Shown here one piece after another: positions 8,762 through 38,079 of a DNA stretch of 41,700 nucleotides. A model generated the notes under the pieces. It did not search any database, was not told the DNA's origin, and saw only the letters and a list, made by a program, of their open reading frames with translations. A program made the translations under genes and the position numbers. Source of the stretch: a virus. The stretch spans positions 1-41,700 of the IMG/VR virus record IMGVR_UViG_3300042465_001606, one strand, 5' to 3'. Positions within the stretch are counted from its first letter, which is position 1, and each line of letters begins with the position of its first letter.

Positions 8762-8921
8762 AATCCTTCTTTCGTTTTGGCTTTAGGCTTACGTTCGTAA
8801 GATGCTTTTCTGAACACATCCAGCTGAGCAGCTTGTCTTCTCCATAGCAACGCAAAGAGGTAACTTCTTCTTTGCAGGTATGACACTTAAAGATACCGCT
8901 AATAACTATATATTTAGACAT
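8745..8921 (-). CDS. Small zinc-ribbon-like protein, 58 residues
   Basis: Translation from ATG 8921 gives MSKYIVISGIFKCHTCKEEV, then TSLRCYGEDKLLSWMCSEKH and a lysine-rich tail. The cysteines and histidine C13-x2-C16 and C36-x3-H40 form a likely single zinc site (C25 may also take part). The gene overlaps the RecA stop by 8 bases and the next gene's start by 17 bases, filling what would otherwise be a 150-base gap; this and the clean motif support it. It is probably a small DNA-binding or protein-binding accessory; function unknown. Confidence 0.75.
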   Translation of the reverse strand: MSKYIVISGIFKCHTCKEEVTSLRCYGEDKLLSWMCSEKHLTNVSLKPKRKKDYEREK

Positions 8922-9921
8922 CTAGCTTGCTTCTAATTGAGGCCTCTAGATCTTTGTCTTCTCTTACTTTATTGACAAATCCATCCCTACCCTGGACCTT
9001 AGACCCGTCTGGGAGGATGTACCAGGCCCCAGAACGCTCTACAATCCCTAAAAGCTCTGCAGTGTCCACTAGGTCCCCAATGGCGTCTATACCGATTGTA
9101 TCGCCTCTGAAGTAGAAGTCATATTCCCCAGCATCTCCTGGGGCAGAGGTCTTAGAGTTCTGGACTTCCCAGAGGACTCTCCTACCCAGCTTTTGCTCAA
9201 TTAGCTTATCCCCAACCTTGATCTTTCCTTTGATAGCCTTAGAATCTGAGCTAGAAGAAAACAGCTTGACTATTGTAGAGGACATAAATTGAGTGGTCAA
9301 ACCTCCTGTGGGAACGGACTGAGTGTACATAGCCTGGATGTTGTTCCTAGCTTGAGAAATTGCAATTATCAAAGCTGGCTTTTCACGATTGTTGGCGTAG
9401 TTTAGCATCAGCCAAGCATGCTTTAGGTCTTTAGACTCTGCACCAATTTGTTTGGTCTGGTCTAAAGCCTTTAGCTCATCAGAATCTTTTTCAAAGTATA
9501 CAGCTGGAAGGAGAGAGCTAATGCTATCAATAACAATAATGTCTACGCCAGCATGAAGAAGTGCAACACCAACGTCCACCATATCGTTTATACTTCTAGC
9601 TTCGGAGTATATTAGTTTAGATGTGTCTACCCCAAGCTTTTTTGCCCAATCTTCGTCATAAGACATCTCTGCATCTACCCAAGCACAAAGCTTTCCTTCT
9701 TTCTGTGCCAGAGCAATTGTTTGTAAGCATAGCGAAGACTTTGCACTAGACTTGCTTCCCCAAAGAAGAACTTGTCTACCATATGGAAAGCCACCACCTA
9801 GTGCTCTGTTAAGACCTACGCTTGGTGTAGGCTGTAGTTCTGTTTTAACACCTACTCCAGAACCAATTCTTTTTCTAATCTTTGGATCTAAAAGTGCAAA
9901 AGCTTCTTCTATAGTTGTCAT
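8914..9921 (-). CDS. recA: RecA-like recombinase
   Basis: This 335-residue RecA-fold ATPase is similar in length to bacterial RecA (about 350). Walker A is G55-SKSSA60-K61-S, where the usual glycine before lysine is alanine. The catalytic glutamate follows in WVDAEMSYDEDWAKKLG, and Walker B is VDIIVIDSISSLLPA. A central segment (ALIIAISQARNNIQAMY) matches the conserved strand before DNA-binding loop L2. It forms filaments on single-stranded DNA and promotes strand exchange for recombination-dependent replication and repair. It overlaps the MazG-like stop by one base (TAATG). The family could also be called UvsX-like; RecA is used because of the VDAE and IDSI motifs. Confidence 0.9.
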   Translation of the reverse strand: MTTIEEAFALLDPKIRKRIGSGVGVKTELQPTPSVGLNRALGGGFPYGRQVLLWGSKSSAKSSLCLQTIALAQKEGKLCAWVDAEMSYDEDWAKKLGVDTSKLIYSEARSINDMVDVGVALLHAGVDIIVIDSISSLLPAVYFEKDSDELKALDQTKQIGAESKDLKHAWLMLNYANNREKPALIIAISQARNNIQAMYTQSVPTGGLTTQFMSSTIVKLFSSSSDSKAIKGKIKVGDKLIEQKLGRRVLWEVQNSKTSAPGDAGEYDFYFRGDTIGIDAIGDLVDTAELLGIVERSGAWYILPDGSKVQGRDGFVNKVREDKDLEASIRSKLDV

Positions 9922-10250
9922 TAAAACTTTACTCCGTGTCTTTCTGGTCGTGACTTATTAAAACTAGTCTTGTTGTTTAGAGCTATCTGTAGCTCTTGGT
10001 CGACATATCCATTATCCACCAATCCTTGGTATAAGTCAAGTGTTCTGATTATAATGTCTGCCATTTCATCAGCAACTTCTTGCTTTCCCTTATCTTTACG
10101 AATAGCTTCCATTACCTCTACCGCTTCTGACACGATCATCATTAGCTGCTTGGTAATAAAAATATCGTCTACTTTGTCTGGCCAAAATCCTTTTTCCACC
10201 GCAATGTTGTGAATGTCTTTTGCCATAGTGTCTAATGAGTTATATATCAT
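9921..10250 (-). CDS. MazG-like nucleotide pyrophosphohydrolase
   Basis: A 109-residue protein with the MazG-type metal-binding pattern E42-x2-E45 then E62-x2-D65 (SEAVEVMEAI, VADEMADIIIRTLD), and a C-terminal KTSFNKSRPERHGVKF segment typical of phage MazG-like proteins. It hydrolyses nucleoside triphosphates to monophosphates, and phage versions may adjust nucleotide pools or ppGpp signalling. GGAGG lies six bases before ATG 10250, inside the 3' end of the polymerase gene, so the two are translationally coupled. Confidence 0.88.
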   Translation of the reverse strand: MIYNSLDTMAKDIHNIAVEKGFWPDKVDDIFITKQLMMIVSEAVEVMEAIRKDKGKQEVADEMADIIIRTLDLYQGLVDNGYVDQELQIALNNKTSFNKSRPERHGVKF

Positions 10251-13200
10251 TTACGTCCTCCATAATTATTGTTCCATCTTTTGTTTTTCCAAAAGAGAAG
10301 CTGTAAGCAGACCCCTCTTGAACTTTCATGTATGCCTTTGGAAAGGCTGTTGGAAAGACCGTTACTGAGTGCAGGTTCCTAGAGCTATCTGCAAGTGTTA
10401 GGGAAGCCATCTTTTTTCCAGCCTTGGTAATTCTTGGCTTAAAGGAAACCACAAACATGTCTTCATCTTTGTAAGGAAGCTGTTTGTATCCTAGGAATTT
10501 TACAAGGGCATTATTGGATTGTTTAATTTCGTCCACAGGGATAGCAGTAACAATCCTATTGTTATCGCATAGAAGGAGGTAACTCCTACCAGCCTCAATA
10601 GTGGTTTGCTCTTCATCAAATATACCTACGCTTCCAGTCTTATCTAAGACTTCAACACGTGACCAGCCTTTACCACGCTTAATAGATTTTACCATACCCA
10701 TCAAAACGAATGCACCCTTTTCTTCAAACTCTTCTATTGGGTTAATAAAGGCATAGTAGTGAGATGGAACGGTTATGTTGAACTCTGGAAGATTTAAAAA
10801 CTCATAAAGGTTTTCTTTAATCTCTTCTTCGTTTCGTGGATTATCTTCAAAGGTGGCTGCACCAATCACACGTAAAGCTTGTAGCGATCTTGTGTTTACC
10901 CCACTACCCTTGGCAAGGGTAAACTCTTCCAAATGCTTGTAGCTCTTGAATGGTCTTTGAGCAATGTACTTTGCAGCAATGTTATCAGAGATAAACTTAA
11001 TGGCAGTTAGTCCAAAACGAATTCCCTTGCCCTCAATCTTAAAGTCTGCATCAGAGTCGTTAACGTGAGGTAGCTTAACTGAGATACCCATACGCTTAGC
11101 TTCAATTAGATACTCTGTTCTAGTATCTTTATCTTTTTCATTCTTTAGCAATGAGTACATGAACTCTAGTGGGTAGTAATACTTTAACCATGCTGTCCAG
11201 TATGAAAGAGTCGAGTACGCTACAGCGTGAGACTTGTTAAAGGAATACCCTGCGTGTGCCTCAAAGTCTTGCCACAAATCTCTTGCAGAGTTAGGAGCCA
11301 TAAACTTAGAAGCACCATCAATAAACTTATCCTTAAACTTGTCGAACTCTTTTGCATCTTTTTTCTTACCAATAATTTTACGAACCTGATCAGCTTCTGC
11401 CATAGTCATTCCGCCAAGCTCTGTACAAGCCTGCATAACTTGTTCCTGGTATAGAATACACCCATAGGTCTCAGCAGTAAAAGCTTTCATCACCTGGTGG
11501 TGGTAAGAGATGTTCTGCTTACCGTGCTTACGAGCAATATAGTCTTTACCAATGGTATTGGCAGCACCTGGACGAACCAAAGCATTAGATGCAGCAAGTT
11601 CTGCAAAGTTTTTAATGCCCATCTTTACAAGAAGGTTGGTATATGGGGTGGCTTCACACTGAAACACACCCTTAGTGTACCCAGAAGAAAGCATCTCATA
11701 AACCTTTTGGTCTTCCATATTTACAGAAAGTAGCTCTAGTTTTTTATTGTGTCTCTGCTCAATAATCTTTAGAGTATCTTGTAGTACGCTAAGAGTCTTT
11801 AGACCCAGAGCGTCAATCTTAATTAAACCAATACGTTCTGCCTCAGCCATGTCTACTGCAACTACTGGAATTCTTTCGTCTGACCCAGGAGAGGATCTGG
11901 TTTCCATTGGTGCATACCTAAAGATTGGTTCTTTAGATGTTACAACTCCAGCTGCATGTATTCCTGTACCACGGATTCTTCCACGTAGCTGTTCTCCATA
12001 TCTTTCAATCTCTGGGTACTTCTCACGAAACTCAACGGTAGACTTTGATGTGCAGTATTCATCCCAAGTATCAACGAGCTTCATCACCTTGTTTACGTCT
12101 GGCAGAGGAATGTTTAGCACACGAGCAATATCTCTTACAACACCCTTGTCTTTAAAAGATAAGAATGTTGCGATAGAGGCTACGTGTCTATACTGTCTTA
12201 CAAGATAGTCTTTAACTTCTTCACGACGGTTATCTTGGATATCTGTATCAATATCTGGGAAGTCATTACGTTCTGGATTAATAAATCGGAAGAAAAGTAG
12301 GCCATGTTTGATTGGGTCAATATCTGTAATGCCCAAGGCGTAGCAGAGTAGTGATCCAGCAGAAGATCCACGACCTGGACCTACCATGATGTCTTCCTTC
12401 TTTGCCCAAGCAATCATGCTACGAACAACGAGAAAGTATGGACCAAAGTTTTTATCTTTGATAATCTTTAGCTCTTCATCAAGTCTTTCTAGGTATTCAG
12501 AATTTCCCTCAAAGCCTCTTTCCTTTAGGCCTTCTAGGGCTAATATCTTTAGCTCTTTGTCTGGGTCTTTGTATTGAACTGGCAAAAGGTTTAGGTGGTC
12601 TTGAATGTTATAGTCTTCAATCTTATTTGCTATCTCAAGAGTATTCTCATACATATCATCTCTATCAATACCCTGAGCTTCCATAGCAGAACGCATCTCT
12701 TCGTGAGAGAGCAAGTGAATCTCAAACTTGTTAAAGCTCATCTGTCTATCTGCACCATACAGATAGTCCAACCTATCCATGAGGTTATCAAACTTTTTAG
12801 ACTTATCGTATGTGGCATCCTTCTCAACCTTATTAGAATAGGTATTAAGAATAAGCTTTAACTCTTGGATTTCCTTTTGCTCTGGACCAGAGTGGTGACA
12901 GTCTGGAGTTACCACAGGCTTGATATTAAATTCATCTGCTAGCTCTAGGATTGTCTTATTCATCTCTGGTGGATTGTGTGGCATTACTTCAAGGTAGTAG
13001 TCATCACCAAAGGTATCTTTGCACCACTTAATGTGTGTCTTAGCAAAGGCTAAGTTGCCTGCCTCAATTGCCTTGGCCAAAACTCCACTAAGGCATCCAG
13101 AAGTAACTACAATACCTTCTTTATACTGCTCTAATACTTTCCAGTCAATTCTAGGCTTTTTGAAAAAGCCCTCTGTCCAAGCAATTTCGTTTAGCTTGTT

Positions 13201-13518
13201 TAGGTTTTCTAAACCTTTTGGGTTCTTGGCAAGAAGGACAATGTGGTTGTAAACAAGATCTAATGGTCCTGTTCTCTCGTCTTTATCACGACGGTCAAAA
13301 CGATCCTCCGTTATATATCCTTCTACGCCAAGTATTGGCTTGATGTCTTTTTCTTTTGCAGCACGATACATTTCTCTGTGACCAGACAAAGAACCGTGGT
13401 CAGTGATTGCAATAGCAGACATCCCAAGTTCAGATGCACGATCTACATACTCTTGTGGAGTTGCGATTCCATCAAAGAGTGAGTAGTGCGTGTGAACGTG
13501 TAAGCCAACATACCCCAT
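10240..13518 (-). CDS. dnaE: DNA polymerase III alpha subunit (DnaE-type)
   Basis: A 1092-residue C-family replicative polymerase, close to the length of bacterial DnaE. The N-terminal PHP domain starts H7-V-H9-T-H11-YSLFDG and contains AITD40H41GSL and VVTPDCHHSG, so its metal ligands look intact. The palm has GRGSSAGSLLCYALG (about 382-396) and the catalytic aspartates D422 and D424 in FPDIDTD, with the third at D569 in IKIDALGLKTL. A C-terminal OB-fold follows (about 960-1010: LMGMVKSIKRGKGWSRVEVL). It copies the phage genome. The partner helicase, primase and single-strand-binding-type genes lie directly upstream, but no sliding clamp or clamp loader gene is in the window, so host ones are probably used. 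Confidence 0.95.
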   Translation of the reverse strand: MGYVGLHVHTHYSLFDGIATPQEYVDRASELGMSAIAITDHGSLSGHREMYRAAKEKDIKPILGVEGYITEDRFDRRDKDERTGPLDLVYNHIVLLAKNPKGLENLNKLNEIAWTEGFFKKPRIDWKVLEQYKEGIVVTSGCLSGVLAKAIEAGNLAFAKTHIKWCKDTFGDDYYLEVMPHNPPEMNKTILELADEFNIKPVVTPDCHHSGPEQKEIQELKLILNTYSNKVEKDATYDKSKKFDNLMDRLDYLYGADRQMSFNKFEIHLLSHEEMRSAMEAQGIDRDDMYENTLEIANKIEDYNIQDHLNLLPVQYKDPDKELKILALEGLKERGFEGNSEYLERLDEELKIIKDKNFGPYFLVVRSMIAWAKKEDIMVGPGRGSSAGSLLCYALGITDIDPIKHGLLFFRFINPERNDFPDIDTDIQDNRREEVKDYLVRQYRHVASIATFLSFKDKGVVRDIARVLNIPLPDVNKVMKLVDTWDEYCTSKSTVEFREKYPEIERYGEQLRGRIRGTGIHAAGVVTSKEPIFRYAPMETRSSPGSDERIPVVAVDMAEAERIGLIKIDALGLKTLSVLQDTLKIIEQRHNKKLELLSVNMEDQKVYEMLSSGYTKGVFQCEATPYTNLLVKMGIKNFAELAASNALVRPGAANTIGKDYIARKHGKQNISYHHQVMKAFTAETYGCILYQEQVMQACTELGGMTMAEADQVRKIIGKKKDAKEFDKFKDKFIDGASKFMAPNSARDLWQDFEAHAGYSFNKSHAVAYSTLSYWTAWLKYYYPLEFMYSLLKNEKDKDTRTEYLIEAKRMGISVKLPHVNDSDADFKIEGKGIRFGLTAIKFISDNIAAKYIAQRPFKSYKHLEEFTLAKGSGVNTRSLQALRVIGAATFEDNPRNEEEIKENLYEFLNLPEFNITVPSHYYAFINPIEEFEEKGAFVLMGMVKSIKRGKGWSRVEVLDKTGSVGIFDEEQTTIEAGRSYLLLCDNNRIVTAIPVDEIKQSNNALVKFLGYKQLPYKDEDMFVVSFKPRITKAGKKMASLTLADSSRNLHSVTVFPTAFPKAYMKVQEGSAYSFSFGKTKDGTIIMEDVNDI

Positions 13519-14216: not shown

Positions 14217-15161
14217 TTATTTTAGCATATTGGCAATAGCGTTGTCAAACTTAAAGTCTAATGACTTTATGTCTTCGTCCGACATATCCCCAATGTCTTT
14301 GTATTTATTATCTAGCTGTATTACGGAAACACGAGAGCCAAGCTTTTCTAAAAGCCTATTCTTCATGTTACCGCCCGCTTCATCGTTATCTGCAATAACA
14401 ATAATGTTATTGAAGTACTTTTGAAGAAGATCTATTTGCATGCTAGAGACATTTGCCCCTAGAGTTGCCACTGCAGAAAGGCCAACCTGATCTAGCCTAA
14501 TTGCATCGAAAGAAGATTCTACCACATAAACCTGCTCTGCAGTTTTTACACGATTTATATTAAACAGGGTTTTGCTCTTGGGCAATCCTGGAGTATTCTT
14601 AAACTCTTTGCCCTCAATAGATCTTCCAACAAATCCTAAAAGCATTCCGTCTGGAGAGTGAACTGGAACAGTAACCATGTCAAAATTTTCTGAAAAGCCT
14701 AAGTTAAACTTTATCATAGATTCTTTATTGATTTTTCTACCATTAAAGTAGGTCATGGCTCTTGGAGAGTCCATAGCTTGCAAGTGAAGCTTTTTAACCT
14801 GCAGCTCATCGTAGGGAACATACTCTTGTTTAGTATGTAGCTGCCTTGTCATTTCTTGTTCAAGGTCTGTTTCTTGTTCCTTGCTTTTGATAAAGCGAAC
14901 TGACTCAAAGTATGTTCTTGCAGAGGTAAACATTACAAACTCCACAAGATCTGATATTTTGTGACAAGAGAAGCAATAGAACATGCCACTCTTCTTGTCG
15001 ATTTCTCCAGCTGGGCTGCGATGGTTATTGTGAAATGGGCAGAAGATTATAAAGTCGGAATCAACCTCAGACTGAACCTCTATACCCGATCCCGCAAGAA
15101 CTCTTTTAATTTGCTCTTTTGTGTATAGATTACTTTTGTTCCGTCTAGTCCTATTATCCAC
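14217..15161 (-). CDS. dnaG: DNA primase (CHC2 zinc finger and TOPRIM)
   Basis: A 314-residue compact primase. The zinc-binding domain has C41-x2-H44 and C63-x2-C66, and the TOPRIM domain has E215 and D219 in VYVVESSFDAIRL and D258-N-D260 in IIVIADNDEAGG. It lacks the helicase-interaction domain of cellular DnaG (about 600 residues) and pairs with the separate DnaB-type helicase encoded at 15419. The start is GTG 15161, because no start codon exists between the previous gene's stop and the zinc finger. This forces an 82-base overlap with the upstream gene, which is unusually long. Confidence 0.9.
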   Translation of the reverse strand: MDNRTRRNKSNLYTKEQIKRVLAGSGIEVQSEVDSDFIIFCPFHNNHRSPAGEIDKKSGMFYCFSCHKISDLVEFVMFTSARTYFESVRFIKSKEQETDLEQEMTRQLHTKQEYVPYDELQVKKLHLQAMDSPRAMTYFNGRKINKESMIKFNLGFSENFDMVTVPVHSPDGMLLGFVGRSIEGKEFKNTPGLPKSKTLFNINRVKTAEQVYVVESSFDAIRLDQVGLSAVATLGANVSSMQIDLLQKYFNNIIVIADNDEAGGNMKNRLLEKLGSRVSVIQLDNKYKDIGDMSDEDIKSLDFKFDNAIANMLK

Positions 15162-15406
15162 TCTATTTTTTTCTTTCCTACGTATATTCCATATGTCGTT
15201 AATTTAAATTCAAATATTTGTGCTTCTTTATTATACCGTATTGTGAAGTCTGGGTCAATATCTAATCTTGGTACATACCCCAGAGTTTTCATCTCAATTA
15301 GTAATAGTTTTATGTATTCTATTTTTAGTCGTGCAATTGCTGAGTCGTCGTAGATGTTTCCATCTAGAGAAAAACTCTTGATCGGTTTATGGTGTAAATT
15401 GTCCAT
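15080..15406 (-). CDS. Hypothetical protein between helicase and primase
   Basis: A 108-residue protein starting MDNLHHKPIKSFSLDGNIYD. A central stretch of alternating hydrophobic and charged residues (FTIRYNKEAQIFEFKLTTYG, IYVGKKKIEWIIGLDGTK) looks like an antiparallel beta-sheet, and a short basic helix closes the protein. I recognise no family. Its 3' end overlaps the primase gene by 82 bases. The start lacks a Shine-Dalgarno but has TATAAT five bases before ATG, suggesting a leaderless start. The position implies a replisome accessory, but this is inference. Confidence 0.75.
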   Translation of the reverse strand: MDNLHHKPIKSFSLDGNIYDDSAIARLKIEYIKLLLIEMKTLGYVPRLDIDPDFTIRYNKEAQIFEFKLTTYGIYVGKKKIEWIIGLDGTKVIYTQKSKLKEFLRDRV

Positions 15407-17709: not shown

Positions 17710-18153
17710 CTAGTTTGGAATACCAATTGCAATGATATGAACCTTGACAGCTAGCTGTCCTGCTGTATTAAATCGAACAATTCCATTTACCGCTGAATTG
17801 GTTACACTTGAAATCACAACAGAAACATCTTTACCAGAAGGCGTTGTTTCGATAAGAACTGGGCTGGCCGTAACAATTGGCGGATACTTATACTCGCCCT
17901 TAAAAGAATAAGTAAAGGGGACATCTGTTTCTGCAGATACAAGATTCAGTCCTGAATAAATAGATACTTCTCCAGCAACAACTTTTGTGTCTGTCAACAG
18001 TGTGCTCTGAAGCCCCTCGGAGGTGTTTATAGATGCGTACTTATATTTTGCAGAAGAAATCTGAGAAGACAAATCATTGATTGCTTCAACTATCTGATAT
18101 ACATAATTTACGTCTAGAGGCTGTCCTCTATCTGGTGTTGGTATTCTGGCCAT
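17710..18153 (-). CDS. Probable tail-fibre or virion structural protein
   Basis: A 147-residue protein: a short helical N-terminus (DVNYVYQIVEAINDLSSQIS) that could trimerise, followed by a beta-rich C-terminal domain (YPPIVTASPVLIETTP, then VSVVISSVTNSAVNGIVRFN). This looks like the small beta-sandwich found at the ends of phage fibres or head fibres. It follows the fibre genes and is the last structural-looking gene before the DNA-binding and replication genes. TATAAT with the TGG extension lies five bases upstream of ATG 18153, so it has its own promoter and perhaps no leader. Confidence 0.66.
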   Translation of the reverse strand: MARIPTPDRGQPLDVNYVYQIVEAINDLSSQISSAKYKYASINTSEGLQSTLLTDTKVVAGEVSIYSGLNLVSAETDVPFTYSFKGEYKYPPIVTASPVLIETTPSGKDVSVVISSVTNSAVNGIVRFNTAGQLAVKVHIIAIGIPN

Positions 18154-27700: not shown

Positions 27701-28468
27701 TTAAGCCTCTTCTAGACTTAAGCTTATATTCCATAGGTCGTGATTGGATCCCCCACGTTTTTCAACTGAGTAGTTAAAGCTAGAAATATACATTTCAAGA
27801 ATTTCATTATATTGACCTAGCTTCGAATACTTTTGTGGGTCTTCGTCAGAAAAATTGGTGTATTTGTCATAAGCTAGGTAAACATAAAAAGATCCCTTAT
27901 AGGAGTTATACCAGTCTAAAATTTCTAGTCCTCCAGCCCCTCCGTCGGTAGTATACTGCTGATCTTTGTAGTATGGTGATCCGCTATATTGTTGAATATA
28001 CTTATTAGGTGTTGATGGATTTCCGTCGTGGTCTATAAACTGTTCCAAAAGTTTAACTGGAGTCGCAGGATTTTCGTCGTGATCGACAGAAGTTACTAAA
28101 TCTCTTGCTCTTGCAGAGTCATCAAATCCTGGAAATTCTGAAAAAGATCTAGATGGCAGCATACTCCAAGATGTTGAAATGTCTATCTTGTCTGCAATAT
28201 GGTAAGATCTCATTCTTCCATTTATCATTCTTTCTTTTTTCTCAATTCTTACTGAGTTAAATTGTAAAGGAGACCTATTGTCATCTGACAAAATCAAAAA
28301 CTCGTTAAGCAACTCTTCTTGTGTAGCATCCTCTGGGATAGTCTGACCAACTTCAAAACCTTCTGGGACATAAGCTCCTGATTCAAGCTTGCCTGGATTA
28401 TTTGCCCAGAGCATAGCTTGGGGACGGCCATACTTTTTTCTGTTTGTCATGTATGCGTTAGTTGCCAT
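27701..28468 (-). CDS. Distal-tail-type minor tail protein
   Basis: A 255-residue protein directly between the tape measure and the tail-tip gene, the position of distal tail proteins in siphoviruses. It shows FNSVRIEKKERMINGRMRSY and HIADKIDISTSWSMLPSRSF, a beta-rich tube-adaptor-like region, and a C-terminal ILEMYISSFNYSVEKRGGSN segment that could close the beta-barrel. In the middle lies a duplicated motif, DHDENPATP and DHDGNPSTP, with 17-residue period. It would join the tube to the tip. It overlaps the tape measure stop by one base and has AAGGGG upstream. Confidence 0.8.
   Translation of the reverse strand: MATNAYMTNRKKYGRPQAMLWANNPGKLESGAYVPEGFEVGQTIPEDATQEELLNEFLILSDDNRSPLQFNSVRIEKKERMINGRMRSYHIADKIDISTSWSMLPSRSFSEFPGFDDSARARDLVTSVDHDENPATPVKLLEQFIDHDGNPSTPNKYIQQYSGSPYYKDQQYTTDGGAGGLEILDWYNSYKGSFYVYLAYDKYTNFSDEDPQKYSKLGQYNEILEMYISSFNYSVEKRGGSNHDLWNISLSLEEA
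27986..28087 (-). repeat. 17-residue (51-base) tandem duplication in the distal tail gene
   Basis: Residues 128-144 (VDHDENPATPVKLLEQF) and 145-161 (IDHDGNPSTPNKYIQQY) are two copies with matching D-H-D-x-N-P-x-T-P-x-K positions. The DxDxNxxT spacing resembles calcium-binding loops. The DNA copies are diverged but clearly alike. Confidence 0.8.
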
Positions 28469-31400
28469 TAGAACCTGTTGCCCCTTATTCTTTGAGAATC
28501 AACCATTCTTAGCTGACCCATTACTGTTTGTGCAATTGTGTTTGGATCTGATTGAGATGAAACATTTACACTCAAGTTATAATTATACACTGAACTCCTC
28601 ATGTCTGCTGGAGGTTGTACTTCTGGGGTCTTTATTGCTGGACCCTTTAGCTCCCCCCTGACGGGAACATTAAACTTTGGGCCCGAAGGAATTTGTGGAA
28701 TAGATGGTCTAAGCATTCCCATATTTGGCATACTGATTGATGGTTTGTTAAATGATGGCTTATTGTAGGTGCCAGTTGATTCGTTAAAGTTAGGACTTCC
28801 TCCCATGTACATCATTCCCTCTTCCATACCGTTGTCGGGAATAATTTGCGGCATTGGTCGAGGCTTAAGAATTGATGGCTTGTTAAATGCTGGTTTTGTT
28901 AGTCCTGGTCTTCCTGGTATTGGGCGGGGTTTTCCAGCATTAACAGAATCTAAGAATCTTCTTCCAAGTTTTTTAGCGGCTTCAGCTTTAACTACGTATT
29001 CTCCATTAGAAAGCATTGCTGGAATAGAGTCTGACTTTTCAGTTCCTGGTCCAGAAACTGGTCCTCCATCAGCCAAGAATCGGCTAGCAGTTCCACCACC
29101 ACCACCACCACCGCCGCTAAGCAAGCCAGCTTGACGAAGAATATTATCTGCCTGAGCCTTTGTTATTTTTGCAAGATAGCTATTTATCAGTGCGTCTGCT
29201 CTGTCCCCAGTAGAGTTACTTACTCCAGCGGCTTTGCGTAGTGCTGTGCTTACCTTGCCAGCGGTAGCACTATTGTTTAGTGCTGTTCTAATTCTATTTG
29301 CCTGAGCTGCTGGTGTGTCAAGGGCTGGATCTAGCGGGTCTTGGCCGCCTCCGCCTCCGCCGCCTCCGCCGCCTCCGCCGCCTCCGCCAGAAGCCTGACC
29401 CTCATGAATTGTTTGTACTGTAAGAGTAACAGTCTTGTTTTGAATTCCGTTCCAAGCATTCAAGGTATCTTGAACAACGCTAAGGGCTTCTTCCATAGCT
29501 TCTTTATAACCCTTGCTGTTTACTCTTGCAACATCAATATTATTTTTAATGGTCTCCCACTCAGTCTTTGTCTTTCCAAGAACCGTTAGTTCGTCAATTC
29601 TTGACTGTAGCTCTACTCCCGCCAAGCGGACTCTTTCTGTTGCTGGTTCAATAGCATTTTCTTCAATTTCAAAAATCTGATTTGCAAGCTGTTCAAGTCT
29701 TTCTTCTATCTCAATTCTAGATAGTCCGTTTTCTCCCCTAACTGCGTCAAGGGCGTTTTCTCTTCCTTGATTAAGTGCGTCAGTCTGGCTTGAAAAGTAT
29801 CCAGATGCAGAGGTTGCTCTTACGTCCTGTACGGCTCTTGCAGCTGCAGATAGGTCACCACGAGTAATTGCTTCTGCTACTGATAGCTTTCCTTTTTCCT
29901 GGTCTAGAATTTTTTGATTTGCTTTACGAACGTCTTCTAGGGCTTTTAACTTTTCATCATAAGTTTTATTGATAGCCTGCTCTTGTTCTTCAATACCCCT
30001 AAGATCTGCCTCATAGTCATCCATCTCATACTGTATTGCAGCTATCTGGTTCTGAGCATCCTCAATAATTTTTTGATCATCTGCTATTTGTAACTCATAT
30101 TCTAGAGTTAGCTTTTTCTCTTGTACATCAAAGGATTCCATTGCTTTATTAAAGCCATCTTCAAACACTTCTTGAAGACCTTCTGGAGTTAGCCTTGCAG
30201 CTTCTCTCATAGCGTCTTGTGCAGCTCTAAGCTCGGCAAGCATTGTGTTGAGCTGTTCTCTAGTTACATCTCCAGTAGCAACTGCTGCTGCTACAGAGGC
30301 GTCCTGGATAGTTTCGTATGCTTCGGCAACTGAATATCCAGCAGCCCTTAGTTGATTAAAAGCTAATACCTGGTTTCTTGATTCTTTTGCAGTTTTCTGC
30401 TGTTGGGTAACGTATTCTCCAAGGGCAATTGCAGAAAGAGCTCTTCCAATATTCTTTAACTGATCTTTAAATCCTATAATCTCACCAGTTTGTTTATCAA
30501 AATTAAATAGAGTGTTCTTTCTCTTTTCAAATTCTTCTGGGTCCATTCCAGCTATAAGACTAATTAGGTCTTCTCCAGCACCTAGCTGCCTCATGTCGTT
30601 TTCAATACCGCTGAAAAGATTGATTCCAGCTCCGCCTCCAAATAGCTTGTTGATTGCGTTAGCTGAGGCTTCAAATCCTTTAGTCACCCCTACCTGGTTT
30701 TTACGAACATCTCTTAGCTTTTTGAGTAGATCGTCTAGTGGTGATGCAGATGGGCCAGAGCTGCCTCCAGACGGAGCGTCTTCTTCTTCTACAGCAGCAG
30801 CTGTCCTGTCTGTTCCTGCTTCAGTAACTCTTACTGCAGTAACAGTTGCAAAGTCTTCGAAAGCTCTGGCTTTTTGATCTGCAGGAAGAGTTGCTTGCCA
30901 AGCCTTCCAGGCTGCCTGCATGTCTGGGTCTCCCTGAAGCTCCATGGTGTTAACAAAAGCAGAAACATAATCTTTTCTTTGCTCATTATCAAGGCTTTCG
31001 AAATAAGCCTGGTTTTGTTTAAAAGCTTCGAACTGGCCTTCTCCAACTAGGTTTTGAACAAAATCCATTGTTAATTCTCCACCATAAGAGTTTATTTTTT
31101 CGACCATGTCTTCCATTTTTGCTGCGGCTTCTGGATTCTTGTTGTAGAACTGCATAATGACACTAGTTTCAAGAACATTTGCACCACCCAGTTTTGCAAC
31201 TTCTTCAAACATGGCCAAGGATTTTTGTGCATCTGCTGGACTCTTAGACTCTATATTTGCAATAAATGTTTTTTGCTGTTCTGGCAAGGCATTGCCCTCT
31301 TCATCAACAAACGCATTCATTAATCCAATTGCACGGTTTCCATCGGCAGATCCAATGTTAGTCATGATATTTAGAATCTTTGTCATCTGTTCTTTATCGT

Positions 31401-34400
31401 TTCCAAAACTATCCAAAAGTTGCATAACCATACCTGGATCTAATTCTTTATTGGCAAGCAGTAGTGTCATCTGGTACTCTTGAGTGTCGTCTAAACCCCC
31501 TGCAGCTATAGTCTTGTCATAAGCTCCCTTAGCAATTTGTCCCATGACTGGATCATCTGCGTATGCTGCGGTAAGAGCTTTGCTTGCTGCTTCTTTATAT
31601 GCCCCCTGATTAAAGTTCATTCCAAGGAATGATCCCTGGTTTGTGAAATTGTCTAGAACCATTTTGGTTGTCTCAGCATTTTTAGCAAGAAGAGCTTCTC
31701 TATCTAGGATGTGCTGTGTTGTAAGCTCTTCTGCTTTTGCCACGTCTCCAGCTGCAACAGCATTTGCAATTCTTCTTTGGTACTCTAGGTCTAAGGAATC
31801 CAGCATTTCTTTTTGTTGCTGCATTGCAACCATTCCCATTGCAACATTGGTAGCCGAAGCTTGCCCCATCTTGGCCATTCCATCTACGCCCTGCCAAATA
31901 CCCACTGTAAGGGCAATTGCTCCAGCTGTAGCTAGAGCAATTCCACCAGCAACAGTTCCAACAATTGGTACTGCCTGAGCAATTAGTCCAGCAGCAGACA
32001 AGGCACCCGCAACGCCGAGAGCTGCAGCGGCGACGCCTCCAGTAGCTAGTAACGTACCTCCACCTGCCTGAAAACCACCCTCGGTCATTTTTGGCTGAGA
32101 CGCTTGTGCCACAGCACCAATTTGATCCTGAGTTTCTTGAATCATCTTGACTCTAACTTCAAGTGGTTCGTTTATAAGATTTTCTCCATTTGGACCGAAT
32201 ATTTCAATGAGTTTTGCGTTAACATTAATTCCAAAAGATTGATTTCCTAGTTCTTGGCCAATGCTGGCAGCAATACTTCTTGCCTGTGCTTCATTCAGTG
32301 CCCCAGAGGCAACTGCAGTTCCTAGTTGGTTTACAAGCTGAGCCTGTGTTGCGGAAGATCCTTTTTCTGCAACACTCTTTCTCAGAGAGTCTAGCATAGC
32401 CTTACCTTGTTCTCCAGCTACAAAAGATTCTCCGAATGTTGTTTTTCCTTGCTGAACACTGAATGGCGATGCATTTGCCTCTCTCTGCTTATCCATGATT
32501 TCCCCAGCTGACGCTGTTCCTGCAAATTCTGAATAGGCCAGAATAGCCTTTTTGCCAGCTCCCAGAGTTTCTGTCATCTCCATGGCTTCTTTTTGAGCTT
32601 TATCGAACGCACCCTTTAGTGCAAAAGCACCCATGGCTAATGCGGCAATGGCTGCTACCGCAATACCTATTCCAGCAGGTAACATTGGAAGGATCATAGA
32701 CAATGCCATAACTGGCATCATTAGGTCTTGTGCTACCTTACCAGCTGATCCAGGAAGCATTGAGCCAGCCATGACGGCTCCAGAAGCAACCATACCAGCC
32801 GTACCCATACCACCTCTTCCACCACCAGCACCTTTTTGCTGAGCTTGAGGTGCTTGGTTAGCTCGCATAGCCGCATTGGCCCTTCTTGTCTCTGCCCCCT
32901 TGATAGCACCCTGCTGTCTGTTGTAAGTTGTCTGTCCCGCCTTTTGGTCTGGAACAAGTCTGTTTCCAGAATAGTAGCGTGTTCCACCTGCAGTTTCCCT
33001 CGCTGTTATTCTTTGAGTTTGTCCCTTTTTAGCTGAATCTGTCTTTGTTTTTGTATCTACTTTAGTAGCGTCAATGCTCTTCTTTTTAGCTACAGTCTCT
33101 TCTTTATTAGTCTTTGTTACTGCTTTTCTAGTCTTTGTTTCTTCTTTAACAGCAGTAGTAGACTTTTTCTGTGCATTTGCTTGTTCATCAAGTAGCCTCT
33201 TCGCTTGTGCAACGCTTGTTCCAGCTGGGGCTGTTATTTTATTTGAAGCCTTTTTTTCTTCATAAAATACTTGCTGGCCAGCATTAATCCTTTGCCTTGC
33301 TCTTTCTGCAGGCATAGACAGTTGCCTTTTTCCTTTTGCAGCTTGATTTAAGTCAACTTGTTTGTTAGGAGTAACATGAACTCTGGCCACTTTTTCTGGA
33401 AGGCTATATCCAAACAGTTTTGCGTTCTGCCTATATTTGTCCATGCTATCTTTATAGATAGGCTCTTTGTCGTACATTCTTGATCTTCCAACATCGCCAA
33501 ATTTCATACTGCCTTGGCCTTTAGCCTTTAAGATTTGCTCTGAGCTGTCCTTAAAAGCGTTGTAGTTGGTTAAAACTTTTCCTGTAGCAGAACTAAACTT
33601 TTTACCAATATTCTGGGCTTCTTCTTTTACTATTTTCTGTGCTGTTGAGGAAAAGCTAGGATCATCGACAAATTTCATTTTGCCAAACTCTGAGGTAAAT
33701 CTTGTAGAAACTGCCCCAGCAAACTTATCAAAATTTCTTTTTAGAGCTGGGCTTTTCTTCATTGCAGCTTCTAGTTTTTGCGGAGTAGAGTGACCCATCT
33801 GCTTTGCTATTTCTGTTACGAGAGGAATCATTAAGCCTTTTCCACCCTTTTTGTAAGCTGCAGAAAGTTCTTTTCCAGTTACGGGGTTTTTACGAGAATT
33901 CGCCATTCTATTGTTTATATCTGTATCATCTGGCAAGAATGTTACAGCACTAGTATATGCAGTTACTGTCTTTTTAGCAGATGCTGGTTTCTTAGATCCT
34001 ACCTTTTCAGCACCCAGTTTAAATCCAGGAATGTTTCCAGAAATTAGTGCTTGAATAAATCCACGATATTTTTCTGCTTTGTCCGCTGGAATAACTGCTT
34101 CTCCAGGGGATAGCATAGCTGGAACAATATCTCCAGCACCCTTTGGTCCAGGAACAGAAACAATTCCAGATGCAAGCTTCTTGGGGGATCTTGCCCCTCT
34201 TCCAACTGCTATCGGAGTTCCAGCAAAAGCCATTTGTTTTGCGATTGCTCTATCGTAAGCAGCAGTCAGTGCGTTTATTGCAGCTGCTTCTGAAGTAAAT
34301 GTCTGTCTTAGTTTTGAGTGAACCTGATCTAGAGAAGCAGCTACAGCAGCAGCCTCTAACTGTTGCTGGGTCATGTACTCGGTTTGCATTCCTAGCTGTG

Positions 34401-36174
34401 TGCTTGCACTACCAGCCTTGTTCATTGCAGTCTTAAAGAATACAAATCCCTTAATTACGTTTGCAACACCGTTGGCAATAAGACCAAAACCCATTAGGAA
34501 GACTGGTCCAATTACTCCAGCAATTGCTGTTAGACCAACAACAAACCCTTTTGCACCCTCATCTAACTCATCAAACTTTTTAAGAACACTGGTTCCAAAC
34601 TCTAGCAATGGGGTGACAGCTTTTAAGAATGCTTCTCCAAGAGGTACTAAAGTTACCTTAATGTCTTCCAAAGCTTTTTGGAATTTAAACATTGGAGAGT
34701 CTTCAATTTTTTTCATTTCTCGTTCAGAAAGGACGGCAAGCTCTGCTGTGGTTGCGTTAGATAGTTTTAGTACACGGCTTGCTTGGTTTCCATCTTTAAT
34801 AACGTTTTGGAACAATGTGGATAGACGAGAAAATTGGAACTTTCCAAATAGTTGTTCGATTGCTCGTGCACGATCAAGTGGGTCTAGGTCATCTAGGGCA
34901 GAAGCAAAGTCTACTACAAGTCCCTTTACGTCTCCAGCATTTGCCTCAACAATGCCTTTGATGTTAATTCCAAACTCTGCAAGCATCTCAGATGCTTTGC
35001 CAGTTGGATTAATCAATGCTGCAAGACCAGACTTTAGTGCGTTAGCACCTTCTGAAGCGTTAATACCACCTTCACGCATGGCTGTTAGGAAGAAGGTTAG
35101 ATCTTCTACATCTCCACCTAGCTGTTGAACAACTGGACCAGCTTTTGGAATAGCAATGGTCAAGTCTTCAATAGAGGTAATTGTTTGGTTTTCAACGGCG
35201 TTTAGGAAGTCAATTTTTCCTGCTAGCTCGTCTGCAGAAACTCCAAATGCATCTGTTAGAGAGATTGTGGCTTCTAGGGCTTTTGCCTGTTCTACCCCAC
35301 CAAGTACGGCTAGTCTAGTTGTTTCAGCAACCTGAGCAGTAAGCTCTGCACCCATCTTACCAGTAGCTGCAATGTCGGCCGCAAGCTCCATTGTTTTTGA
35401 AACAGCAACCCCGTATTTAGTAAATTCATTTGCAAGATTTTTAATGTCTTGAAGAGCCTTGTTTGTTTCCTCTGTTGTGGTAAACATTTCACCATAGACA
35501 CGTTTAAATCTTACAGCCTGCTTTTCCATGTCCATGAATGTTTTAGCAGCAACACTACCAAGCATTATTAGCGGTACAGTAAAACCAACCATAAGCTGTC
35601 TACCAGCCCACTGAGTATTCTTACCGAAGTTTAGAAGGTTAGTAGAACCTTGCTTAAGCATCTGGTTAAGAAGGGCTTGACGTTGTGCAGCGATCTGTGT
35701 TTTTGTTGCCAGATTTTCCATATCCAAAGCAAGAGGCCTGACGGCAATTGCTCGCATGGCACCGTTTGCATCTCTACCCATTTTAATATATTGGGTCTGC
35801 AAATCCTTAACACGTTCACGTGCGACTTTATTTATTGTGTCGAACTCAGACGAGAAGAATCTTCCAAAGCTTTTTGTGGCTGCAGCAGAATACCTAAAGT
35901 ACTCTCCCATAGAGAGTTTATTTTTTTGAAGGGAGTTTGTAAAAGAATCTGTAGTGGTTTTTATAGTTTTTATACCAGCAGAAAATTGGCCAGTCTTATT
36001 TAAACCATTGATTAAGCTGTTCTGCAGTTGCATTGAGGATGCAGCAGCTGTACCACCAGATTTTGCTAGGGATGTGTGGAAGGCTGATATTTGCCTTTGA
36101 AGATTCTTGATATTGGCCAGAGCTGCAGCCGTATCAATATCGACTCTTATTCTGGCATTGGCGTCTTCAGCCAT
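28468..36174 (-). CDS. Tape measure protein
   Basis: A 2568-residue protein, by position and composition the tape measure. The N-terminal 1-190 is helical (TAAALANIKNLQRQISAFHT), followed by a membrane-like stretch (VPLIMLGSVAAKTFM) and a PhageMin-tail-type region with repeated coils. Hydrophobic segments lie near 538-581, 1128-1195 and 1372-1428, as expected for DNA-ejection channels. A Lys/Thr-rich stretch occurs at about 970-1058. Two copies of a 'GP...SDxIPAMLSxGEYV' motif lie near 675-710 and 2370-2398; this motif is typical of tape measures. Polyglycine runs precede the second. ATG 36174 has GAGGG upstream. It sets tail length and is ejected with the DNA. Confidence 0.94.
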   Translation of the reverse strand: MAEDANARIRVDIDTAAALANIKNLQRQISAFHTSLAKSGGTAAASSMQLQNSLINGLNKTGQFSAGIKTIKTTTDSFTNSLQKNKLSMGEYFRYSAAATKSFGRFFSSEFDTINKVARERVKDLQTQYIKMGRDANGAMRAIAVRPLALDMENLATKTQIAAQRQALLNQMLKQGSTNLLNFGKNTQWAGRQLMVGFTVPLIMLGSVAAKTFMDMEKQAVRFKRVYGEMFTTTEETNKALQDIKNLANEFTKYGVAVSKTMELAADIAATGKMGAELTAQVAETTRLAVLGGVEQAKALEATISLTDAFGVSADELAGKIDFLNAVENQTITSIEDLTIAIPKAGPVVQQLGGDVEDLTFFLTAMREGGINASEGANALKSGLAALINPTGKASEMLAEFGINIKGIVEANAGDVKGLVVDFASALDDLDPLDRARAIEQLFGKFQFSRLSTLFQNVIKDGNQASRVLKLSNATTAELAVLSEREMKKIEDSPMFKFQKALEDIKVTLVPLGEAFLKAVTPLLEFGTSVLKKFDELDEGAKGFVVGLTAIAGVIGPVFLMGFGLIANGVANVIKGFVFFKTAMNKAGSASTQLGMQTEYMTQQQLEAAAVAASLDQVHSKLRQTFTSEAAAINALTAAYDRAIAKQMAFAGTPIAVGRGARSPKKLASGIVSVPGPKGAGDIVPAMLSPGEAVIPADKAEKYRGFIQALISGNIPGFKLGAEKVGSKKPASAKKTVTAYTSAVTFLPDDTDINNRMANSRKNPVTGKELSAAYKKGGKGLMIPLVTEIAKQMGHSTPQKLEAAMKKSPALKRNFDKFAGAVSTRFTSEFGKMKFVDDPSFSSTAQKIVKEEAQNIGKKFSSATGKVLTNYNAFKDSSEQILKAKGQGSMKFGDVGRSRMYDKEPIYKDSMDKYRQNAKLFGYSLPEKVARVHVTPNKQVDLNQAAKGKRQLSMPAERARQRINAGQQVFYEEKKASNKITAPAGTSVAQAKRLLDEQANAQKKSTTAVKEETKTRKAVTKTNKEETVAKKKSIDATKVDTKTKTDSAKKGQTQRITARETAGGTRYYSGNRLVPDQKAGQTTYNRQQGAIKGAETRRANAAMRANQAPQAQQKGAGGGRGGMGTAGMVASGAVMAGSMLPGSAGKVAQDLMMPVMALSMILPMLPAGIGIAVAAIAALAMGAFALKGAFDKAQKEAMEMTETLGAGKKAILAYSEFAGTASAGEIMDKQREANASPFSVQQGKTTFGESFVAGEQGKAMLDSLRKSVAEKGSSATQAQLVNQLGTAVASGALNEAQARSIAASIGQELGNQSFGINVNAKLIEIFGPNGENLINEPLEVRVKMIQETQDQIGAVAQASQPKMTEGGFQAGGGTLLATGGVAAAALGVAGALSAAGLIAQAVPIVGTVAGGIALATAGAIALTVGIWQGVDGMAKMGQASATNVAMGMVAMQQQKEMLDSLDLEYQRRIANAVAAGDVAKAEELTTQHILDREALLAKNAETTKMVLDNFTNQGSFLGMNFNQGAYKEAASKALTAAYADDPVMGQIAKGAYDKTIAAGGLDDTQEYQMTLLLANKELDPGMVMQLLDSFGNDKEQMTKILNIMTNIGSADGNRAIGLMNAFVDEEGNALPEQQKTFIANIESKSPADAQKSLAMFEEVAKLGGANVLETSVIMQFYNKNPEAAAKMEDMVEKINSYGGELTMDFVQNLVGEGQFEAFKQNQAYFESLDNEQRKDYVSAFVNTMELQGDPDMQAAWKAWQATLPADQKARAFEDFATVTAVRVTEAGTDRTAAAVEEEDAPSGGSSGPSASPLDDLLKKLRDVRKNQVGVTKGFEASANAINKLFGGGAGINLFSGIENDMRQLGAGEDLISLIAGMDPEEFEKRKNTLFNFDKQTGEIIGFKDQLKNIGRALSAIALGEYVTQQQKTAKESRNQVLAFNQLRAAGYSVAEAYETIQDASVAAAVATGDVTREQLNTMLAELRAAQDAMREAARLTPEGLQEVFEDGFNKAMESFDVQEKKLTLEYELQIADDQKIIEDAQNQIAAIQYEMDDYEADLRGIEEQEQAINKTYDEKLKALEDVRKANQKILDQEKGKLSVAEAITRGDLSAAARAVQDVRATSASGYFSSQTDALNQGRENALDAVRGENGLSRIEIEERLEQLANQIFEIEENAIEPATERVRLAGVELQSRIDELTVLGKTKTEWETIKNNIDVARVNSKGYKEAMEEALSVVQDTLNAWNGIQNKTVTLTVQTIHEGQASGGGGGGGGGGGGGGGQDPLDPALDTPAAQANRIRTALNNSATAGKVSTALRKAAGVSNSTGDRADALINSYLAKITKAQADNILRQAGLLSGGGGGGGGTASRFLADGGPVSGPGTEKSDSIPAMLSNGEYVVKAEAAKKLGRRFLDSVNAGKPRPIPGRPGLTKPAFNKPSILKPRPMPQIIPDNGMEEGMMYMGGSPNFNESTGTYNKPSFNKPSISMPNMGMLRPSIPQIPSGPKFNVPVRGELKGPAIKTPEVQPPADMRSSVYNYNLSVNVSSQSDPNTIAQTVMGQLRMVDSQRIRGNRF
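29344..29388 (-). repeat. (GCCTCC)n-type microsatellite encoding polyglycine
   Basis: Alternating CCGCCT units on the plus strand encode an uninterrupted glycine run (about 15 residues) in the tape measure gene near residue 2265. The repeat has mixed GCC/TCC units and could vary by slippage in steps of three bases without loss of frame. Confidence 0.75.
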
Positions 36175-36193: not shown

Positions 36194-36514
36194 TTAGGCA
36201 TTTACAAGACCGAGAGATGCTTCTGAGAGCTTAACTCCAGATGCCTCTTCGACAATCTTGTAGACTGTTGGAAGATCTAGATTATCTTCCAAAGCCTTTA
36301 AATCTTCAGCCATCTCTGGCTTGTACTGCTTCATTGCAATTTGAACACATTCCATCAGTAGGCTCATGGACTTGTCATTGTCTTCTGCTACTGCTGTAAT
36401 ACCCTCAAACTTTTTCATAAAAGGGCGGAGCAAAGAAATCTTTAGGGGTCTAACCTTAACTTCTGTTCCGTCAATTAACTTAATTGTTTTCTCTTCGTAT
36501 ACTTCTGTACTCAT
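36194..36514 (-). CDS. Short tail assembly chaperone (gpG-like paralogue)
   Basis: A 106-residue protein homologous to the first 95 residues of the next upstream gene. Shared positions include VY, L-x-DGTE, PLK, LR-x-FM-x-x-F, an MKQ-x-x-PE segment, LED-x-x-DL and YKI. The position immediately before the tape measure is that of the lambda gpG-type chaperone, which coats the tape measure during tail growth. Here it is a separate gene with its own promoter (36550-36558) instead of the short product of a frameshifting pair. AAGGA lies about ten bases before ATG 36514. Confidence 0.85.
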   Translation of the reverse strand: MSTEVYEEKTIKLIDGTEVKVRPLKISLLRPFMKKFEGITAVAEDNDKSMSLLMECVQIAMKQYKPEMAEDLKALEDNLDLPTVYKIVEEASGVKLSEASLGLVNA

Positions 36515-36549
36515 ATTTTAATGTTCCTTCCGCTATGAGGCTTTTATTA

Positions 36550-36558
36550 ATTATAACA
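36550..36558 (-). promoter_or_regulatory. Extended -10 promoter for the short chaperone and tape measure
   Basis: TGTTATAAT on the minus strand lies in the 53-base gap between the long and short chaperone genes. No clear -35 is seen. Transcription would start near 36543, giving a leader of about 29 bases with AAGGA. It could let the short form and the tape measure be made in excess over the long form. Confidence 0.62.
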
Positions 36559-36567
36559 CAAAACCTT

Positions 36568-37269
36568 TTATTTTTTAGGCTTTTTGGTCAAATCTTCGTA
36601 TCCAAGGCCCATCCCAATACCAAACCCAGCATTTCTAGCATTCACGCCTTGCAAAGCTAGAACGTCATTTCCATCTCTTGCCTTACCACCACTAAAGACC
36701 CTAGCCTTCATCTCTTCCCACTTGTTTCCTGAAGACTCTGCGTTGTTCTTATCTATGTCTACCCCCTGAATAGCAGCTAAGAACTTTTTCTCTTGATAGT
36801 CAAGCTCTCTCTTTGATTCTAGAGTTATCAGGAGTTCTGGCATGGAAAGGGAAAGTTCTAGTTGCTGATAATCTTTCCAGATTCCTAGCAAAAAAACCTC
36901 AGACTCAAGCTTGGCTAAATCAAGGTTTTCCCAAGAAGAGCCACTATCTTTTGCTTGTTCTTTTACTGGCTCTTCGGACTCTTCATTAATTTTTATTCCT
37001 GCAGACACCTCTAGGATTTTATATATTCCCTGCAAATCCACAGAATCTTCTAGCTTATCAATAGTGGATATTTCTGGACAATGCTGTTTCATAGAAATAG
37101 CTGCACAGTTTGATAAAAAGATAATTGCTTCTTCGTCATTATCTGCCGTTTTTACAAGCTCAAAGGCTTCCATAAACTCTCTTAGATATTTTAGTTTTAA
37201 CGGAGATAGCTCAATTTCTGTACCGTCAACTAAGACTACTTTTCCTGTTTTATATACTGATGTTGCCAT
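36568..37269 (-). CDS. Long tail assembly chaperone (gpGT-like)
   Basis: A 233-residue protein with two parts. Residues 1-95 (VVLVDGTEIELSPLKLKYLR, EFMEAF) are homologous to the short chaperone at 36194. Residues 110-233 (LESEVFLLGIWKDYQQLELS, LDYQEKKFLAAIQGVDID) resemble the C-terminal T domain of siphovirus chaperones, which contacts tail tube protein. It is one unbroken frame, with no slippery heptamer between the parts. The start is ATG 37269 rather than TTG 37293, because MATSVY aligns with MSTEVY of the paralogue. No Shine-Dalgarno is present; TATACT lies six bases upstream. Confidence 0.83.
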   Translation of the reverse strand: MATSVYKTGKVVLVDGTEIELSPLKLKYLREFMEAFELVKTADNDEEAIIFLSNCAAISMKQHCPEISTIDKLEDSVDLQGIYKILEVSAGIKINEESEEPVKEQAKDSGSSWENLDLAKLESEVFLLGIWKDYQQLELSLSMPELLITLESKRELDYQEKKFLAAIQGVDIDKNNAESSGNKWEEMKARVFSGGKARDGNDVLALQGVNARNAGFGIGMGLGYEDLTKKPKK

Positions 37270-37275
37270 TATATA

Positions 37276-37281
37276 AGTATA
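37276..37281 (-). promoter_or_regulatory. Candidate leaderless promoter (-10) for the long chaperone
   Basis: TATACT on the minus strand is followed by TATATA and then ATG 37269. It lies directly after the terminator that ends the tail tube gene, so a new promoter is needed here. With no Shine-Dalgarno, a leaderless, weakly expressed message fits a protein needed in few copies. Confidence 0.5.
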
Positions 37282-37285
37282 CCGC

Positions 37286-37321
37286 AAAAACAAAATTACC
37301 CAGCCTAAAAAGACTGGGTAA
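37286..37321 (-). terminator. Rho-independent terminator after the tail tube gene
   Basis: On the minus strand TTACCCAG and CTGGGTAA form a perfect 8-base stem around a 10-base loop, followed directly by TTTTGTTTTT. It lies 20 bases past the tail tube stop. This is a clear intrinsic terminator and separates a high-demand gene from the chaperones. Confidence 0.88.
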
Positions 37322-37341: not shown

Positions 37342-38052
37342 TTACGATACTATGTTTGGAATGGTGCGGTCTACGATTTTACCGTAGGATGCATCACTGT
37401 TAGGCAGTAGACGGAATGAAACTTCGTACATTGTCGGCTCGTCACGCTTTGCGGATACTGTAACGCTCTCAATTGAAAGTGCACGGTATGCAACGTAAAT
37501 ACGCTCAATCTGCTCGGTTGGGTCACAGTTACCTGTACCTGGACCAACAGCTACTAGACCACGCTCTACTGGACATTCTCCAATGTCACCAGCAGACATG
37601 TTTAGCACCTGAGATCCCGCCGAGATTCCATTAGTGGAGTTTGTTGTTCCATCTAGGTTCTTAGCCCCAGCAGTTAGATCTTCGTCTCTACCAGCCAATG
37701 AGAACAACAAGTTCTCTAGTGTCGCTTCAGCAAAAGCAGTATTCAGGTTAACCTGCATACCCTGCTTGTATAGCTTTGCAACGTCAAGCACCTGATCAAC
37801 CTGTACTTCACCAAAGTCTGGCTGGAATTGAATTTCCAAACCGTTCATGGTGTAGCCAACGTTACGGAATCCAGCAGTTTCTGCAGCTGTACTCGATAGC
37901 GTTTGGCGGTATGTTCCTGTTGTATTTCCAACAGTTCCTTCTTCTTCGTAATCTGGAAGTAATGCGTCTGTTAAGACTCCTCCTTCGTACGTAAACAAAG
38001 CAGCTGCACCAACAATAATGTTGGTGGCTTCACCTCTTTTGTAATTAGCCAT
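37342..38052 (-). CDS. Major tail (tube) protein
   Basis: A 236-residue protein placed between neck genes and chaperones and flanked by its own promoter (38104) and terminator (37286), as expected for the most abundant tail protein. Beta-rich segments include LEIQFQPDFGEVQVDQVLDV and ESVTVSAKRDEPTMYEVSFR, with helix LDVAKLYKQG between, matching the tube-protein fold (beta-sandwich plus helix). There is no sheath gene, so the tail is not contractile. The start is ATG 38052, six bases after GAGGTG; the in-frame GTG at 38061 is part of that Shine-Dalgarno. Confidence 0.87.
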   Translation of the reverse strand: MANYKRGEATNIIVGAAALFTYEGGVLTDALLPDYEEEGTVGNTTGTYRQTLSSTAAETAGFRNVGYTMNGLEIQFQPDFGEVQVDQVLDVAKLYKQGMQVNLNTAFAEATLENLLFSLAGRDEDLTAGAKNLDGTTNSTNGISAGSQVLNMSAGDIGECPVERGLVAVGPGTGNCDPTEQIERIYVAYRALSIESVTVSAKRDEPTMYEVSFRLLPNSDASYGKIVDRTIPNIVS

Positions 38053-38079
38053 GTAATTCACCTCTTCTTTTTTTTAGAT

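Follow-up and report, generated by a model that had tools for sequence, protein, structure and literature searches.

How does a tailed phage make a short and a long tail assembly chaperone when the two are encoded by separate genes? Few recoding events in tailed phages are as well conserved as the G/GT frameshift, which is commonly regarded as necessary to keep the two products at a strict ratio. Lambda produces gpG and gpGT at about 30:1, and there the tape measure is bound by G and the tail tube protein by T (PMC5009743). The window (the whole stretch of DNA analysed here, a 41.7 kb fragment) carries a long chaperone gene in a single unbroken frame followed by a separate short one. We have found that the two are likely a pair of the lambda gpG/gpGT type in which gene duplication took the place of the programmed -1 frameshift, the protein ratio and the function of the products being inferred.

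Two paralogous chaperone genes in a fixed arrangement

Read along the minus strand, the gene order is a major tail protein-like gene of the Ig-domain type (37342-38061; PHROG_2175, E 6e-30), the long chaperone gene of GT type (36568-37269), the short chaperone gene of G type (36194-36514) and the tape measure protein gene (28468-36174; 2568 aa; PhageMin_Tail PF10145, E 1.1e-24). The major tail protein probably starts at the ATG at 38052 instead of at the 38061 end, and its position is the same in Yaboi and Beuffert. Both chaperone genes sit between the major tail protein and tape measure genes, the location that is one of the criteria of the gpG/gpGT family. The tape measure is presumed to be the client of both chaperones and the major tail protein the partner of the T domain, there being no binding data. 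Elsewhere on the minus strand of the window we identified genes for a B12-dependent ribonucleotide reductase (723-2768), RecA (8914-9921) and DNA polymerase III alpha (10240-13518).

The long protein (233 aa, ATG at 37269) consists of a G domain (residues ~1-100) and a T domain (~109-195), and the short protein (106 aa) is a paralogue of its N-terminal domain. In BLASTP the short protein matched residues 1-98 of the long protein (40% identity over 100 aa, E 2e-25), and the profiles of the two families aligned with 99.9% probability (E 2e-34). The motifs DGTE, PLK, LR-x-FM and MKQ-x-x-PE and the predicted secondary structure are common to both N-domains. This similarity goes well past chance and represents true paralogy. 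Both proteins matched PHROG_10504 and only the long one PHROG_10474, families listed as of unknown function that correspond to the chaperone G and T domains and thereby acquire a likely function. Homology of the G domain and a T domain present in the long form but missing from the short one are also criteria of the gpG/gpGT family, and both were met: tblastn against annotated chaperones gave E values down to 5e-15 for the short protein and 3e-33 for the long one, and the T part of the long gene was 50% identical to that of Coruscant (E 3e-18). The first-pass annotation had described an unbroken long gene with a downstream paralogue of its N-terminal domain, which held by BLASTP, profiles and PHROG_10504. 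It had also named two results that would refute it. One of them, that the shared segment is not homologous, turned out negative in sequence, profile and predicted secondary structure.

Structural models were less informative. The AlphaFold2 models of the short and long proteins were of medium confidence (pLDDT 76 and 74, respectively). The best PDB match of the short model was the HK97 tail assembly chaperone 2ob9 (probability 0.63, E 0.34, TM 0.46), a weak hit with a non-significant E value. The N-terminal elements of the short model recur in the long one ahead of a helical T part, and in BFVD the long model matched viral models labelled as tail assembly chaperones (E 5e-4 and weaker). The fold search of the PDB with the long model gave nothing usable, and a profile search of PDB sequences did not find relatives. 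Both genes are under purifying selection, with dN/dS values of about 0.03-0.09.

The arrangement is fixed in environmental sequences. All 241 IMG/VR loci retrieved have a fused and unbroken long gene; they include 125 distinct long genes, as several contigs were retrieved repeatedly. With two other group members as queries, IMG/VR searches gave 494 and 366 related stretches, and 80 from each search were kept. The short gene was found downstream of the long one in every locus neither truncated nor chimeric, with a gap usually of 28-80 nt, and the examined loci without a recognised short gene either end 0-188 nt past the long gene or are chimeric (L145). In the latter (L145:4735-5100) there is a switch to unrelated DNA directly after the Shine-Dalgarno (SD) sequence and ATG of the short gene, probably a chimeric assembly. 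Intermediate states, either a fused single copy or a duplicated gene still shifting, were not found among the loci or relatives. A scan of GTDB genomes for relatives found none, and an IMG/VR search with the NiceHouse G as query gave no match. In five loci a methyltransferase gene lies between the long and short genes (L025:5697-6472, L062:5697-6477, L065:4947-5727, and also L066 and L067), the one in L025 being a SAM-dependent methyltransferase (Methyltransf_25, E 8e-16). The promoter and SD of the short gene are kept in all five, and so its expression need not rely on coupling to the long gene.

A further criterion of the gpG/gpGT family, a frameshift from the start of the short product, is not met: the long gene is unbroken in the 241 loci and no conserved slippery site was found. 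Slippery heptamers are present in the 48 distinct long genes searched, none of them conserved. The window has an in-frame T TTT TTG at 36889-36895, also found in some relatives and missing from a 99%-identical one (L003) and from most of the family. A GGGAAAA located 337 nt from the start, at the old G/T junction, was discarded for being out of frame. The other refuting result, a slippery site giving a short/long pair, was therefore not obtained, since none is conserved in the long gene.

Expression signals around the long and short genes

Between the major tail protein and long genes there is an intrinsic terminator (37285-37321, minus strand), a stem followed by TTTTGTTTTTG, with a folding energy of -24.8 kcal/mol (z -9). 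We compared 42 representatives less than 85% identical to one another, and a strict search detected a terminator-like hairpin at this place in 34 of them, against 0.2 expected after shuffling. The same strict search found no terminator between the long and short genes and none after the short gene.

Just downstream of the terminator is the -10 hexamer TATACT (37276-37281, minus strand), the predicted leaderless promoter of the long gene, ending 6 nt before the ATG. A TANNNT hexamer was present between the terminator and the long ATG in all 42 representatives, ending 6 nt (33 cases), 7 nt (1) or 9 nt (8) upstream, and a Shine-Dalgarno upstream of the long gene was detected in none of the 42. 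A -10-like hexamer at such a distance from the start (4-10 nt upstream) is rare in the window, occurring in only a few of its 38 genes. In Mycobacterium tuberculosis, TANNNT is centred 7-12 bp before the transcription start, and a transcription start 5 bp or less from the start codon defines leaderless genes (PMC3898074). By analogy, the 6-nt gap found here is consistent with the leaderless spacing of that organism, whose leaderless mRNAs likewise have TANNNT centred about 9 nt before the start codon and no SD, with the difference that ours is a phage case predicted from sequence without mapped 5' ends. The long gene fulfils the sequence criteria of leaderless genes, namely a -10 that puts the transcription start no more than about 5 nt from the start codon, an ATG start and the lack of an SD, and we predict that its mRNA is leaderless. 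The hexamer is TATAAT in 8 of the 42 representatives and off-consensus in the other 34, and promoter strength alone would therefore not always favour the short gene. As a side observation, TATAAT is found 5 nt before the ATG of two further genes of the window (17710-18153 and 15080-15406, minus strand), which are additional leaderless candidates.

The short gene has signals of a different kind. Between the two chaperone genes lies the extended -10 TGTTATAAT (36550-36558, minus strand), the promoter of the short gene, followed by the Shine-Dalgarno GGAAGGA (36525-36531, minus strand). The motif TGNTANNNT, which in M. tuberculosis gives greater promoter strength (PMC3898074), was found in 40 of 41 long-short gaps, the sole exception being a truncated gap, when only 2.6 were expected after shuffling. 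TATAAT appeared in 39 of the 41 gaps, and at least 39 of the 41 short genes had an SD-like sequence. The combination of TGNTATAAT and an SD leader is also that of the G gene in some frameshifting relatives. In most of these, G is preceded by a terminator and an SD, to which Coruscant and Yaboi add TGNTATAAT. The short gene seems to keep an ancestral-type signal, given that the frameshifting relatives carry like signals before G, and in the simplest history, which is inferred, the leaderless promoter would have been gained by the long gene. Over the whole window TGNTATAAT has seven matches (454, 2804, 18159, 20908, 36550, 38104 and 41153), all on the coding (minus) strand and mostly just upstream of genes, with 2.1 expected over both strands. 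A scan with the -35/-10 consensus found promoters no more numerous than in shuffled sequence, and the terminator was missing from its output.

The conservation of these signals is shown, and it supports most of what had been read from the window at the start. The terminator before the long gene (37285-37321, z -9) and the extended -10 promoter between the genes both held. The 'weak start signal' attributed to the long gene was corrected to a leaderless start, in view of the 6-nt gap between TATACT and the ATG and the lack of a Shine-Dalgarno. The suggestion that the short/long ratio could be set by transcription was supported with an amendment. Translation probably helps to set the ratio too, with leaderless initiation for the long gene and SD-dependent initiation for the short one, and this functional part is an inference. 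The comparison with related phages that had been proposed as a check was run, giving a two-gene layout fixed across the group, relatives without the second copy, and conservation of the terminator and both promoters.

Frameshifting relatives and the age of the duplication

By tblastn, homologues of G and T were found in records of Streptomyces phages (127) and Rhodococcus phages (several), and an actinobacterial host for the environmental contigs is inferred from these relatives. The comparison with the Stanwilliamsviridae was limited to the terminase and chaperone genes. The terminases of this Streptomyces phage group (Coruscant, Yaboi, Beuffert, Faust kind) are 54-56% identical to that of the window. 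In the Streptomyces and Rhodococcus relatives examined there is one G gene between the major tail protein and the tape measure, with T overlapping in the -1 frame, and a second copy of G was absent from all of them. Joined products are annotated in Yaboi, NiceHouse and Francesca. The end of G has G GGA AAA in Rhodococcus phages, and several Streptomyces-type G genes have C CCA AAT at the opening of the T frame. We infer that these are the shift sites.

In the maximum-likelihood tree of the N-domain the long and short proteins formed reciprocally monophyletic clades (support 98/94 and 98/95, respectively), and both together were set apart from the Streptomyces and Rhodococcus G (98/91, and 100/99.9 in a smaller set in which support for the long clade was only 84/89). 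Being separate clades, the paralogues probably split before the group of the window diversified, and the duplication is likely ancient. The trees favour, without proving, a duplication later than the divergence from the Streptomyces phages: an older one, with the Streptomyces G placed with either paralogue, was not rejected by the AU test (p 0.24 and 0.28), and the Rhodococcus branch of the tree is long, a caveat for the dating.

Proposed mechanism, alternatives and known systems

In the mechanism that we propose, one copy of the duplicated gene became a permanent G-T fusion, the long gene, and the other kept the G domain only. The RNA polymerase would stop past the major tail protein gene and restart at the -10 of the long gene, giving an mRNA that begins at the ATG or only a few bases away from it, with leaderless and presumably modest translation. 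The consensus extended -10 promoter and SD leader would then produce the short protein in excess, and transcripts from the long promoter would read into the short gene, as there is no terminator between them, adding only to the short output. The tape measure would thereby receive a coat of G domains, with the scarce T domain bringing in the major tail protein, the short gene standing in for G and the long gene for GT, by homology. Transcription starts, relative protein amounts and binding partners are all inferred here, without RNA or protein data.

The alternative that survives best, although unlikely, is that the long and short proteins now do different work and are not a dosage pair; the short one might, for example, bind the tape measure and the long one only start tube polymerisation. 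In its favour, the N-domains are only about 40% identical, the clades have been long separated and some of the invariant residues differ. Against it, the core motifs (DGTE, PLK, LR-x-FM, MKQ-x-x-PE) and the predicted secondary structure are common to both, and the gene order and signals mimic a frameshift pair. It is also unlikely that the two-gene state is the older one, with frameshifting in Streptomyces and Rhodococcus phages derived through loss of the second gene. The AU test tolerates the Streptomyces G beside either paralogue, but long and short form one clade against the G of both outgroups in two trees (98/91 and 100/99.9), the -1 overlap is common to the two outgroup lineages, and frameshifting is widely conserved in tailed phages (PMC5009743).

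Less credible still is that the -10-like hexamers arose by chance in AT-rich DNA and that a single read-through transcript is made, the ratio coming from SD strength alone. Read-through is possible and the presence of SD is strongly different between long and short genes. Against this, the spacing is exactly 6 nt in 33 of the 42 representatives despite their divergence, extended -10 sites and terminators far exceed expectation (40 of 41 gaps against 2.6, and 34 of 42 representatives against 0.2, respectively), and hexamers 4-10 nt before the start are scarce among the 38 genes of the window. Finally, that the long gene still gives a short product by a -1 shift at T TTT TTG, the downstream short gene being accessory, is supported by the correct frame of this heptamer in the window and some relatives, but is very improbable with the heptamer missing from L003 and most of the 48 distinct relatives and located within the T domain, not at the G/T junction, no other heptamer conserved, and strong purifying selection on the short gene.

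Replacement of the frameshift by duplication remains the preferred reading. A bolder version, more likely than not on the evidence, is that a widespread lineage has permanently swapped frameshifting for duplication and division of labour, with the ratio fixed by a terminator-promoter element (leaderless long gene, strong-SD short gene). We found no description of a fused GT with a separate G paralogue in the literature searched (most subscription papers were not searchable). This large environmental phage group provides a clean natural exception to the frameshift rule, and a clade without frameshift suggests that selection acts on the ratio and not on the frameshift. It is also an example of a recoded gene splitting into two, a natural system for titrating the short and long forms independently, and a case in which one can test whether leaderless translation serves to keep output low during phage morphogenesis.

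Microbacterium EA-cluster phages express their chaperone ORFs without evident frameshift (PMC7302621), and like the window they have two chaperone ORFs between the major tail protein and the tape measure. However, in AlexAdler, the one phage checked, gp15 and gp16 are separated G and T that match successive halves of PHROG_18843 and are not paralogues (BLASTP E 0.46), and we rejected this split arrangement as a precedent. The chaperones of the Streptomyces Stanwilliamsviridae (Coruscant, Yaboi, Beuffert, Faust) have homologous G and T domains in the same gene order, and their G follows a terminator and an SD leader, joined in Coruscant and Yaboi by a TGNTATAAT promoter like that of our short gene, but their T is in the -1 frame and there is no second G copy. 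In lambda gpG/gpGT and the frameshifted siphovirus chaperones (Xu, Hendrix and Duda 2004, summarised in PMC5009743) a short G and a long G-T are likewise encoded between the major tail protein and the tape measure, sharing the N-domain and with T in the long form only, but from one start and a -1 frameshift, whereas the group of the window uses two separate genes.
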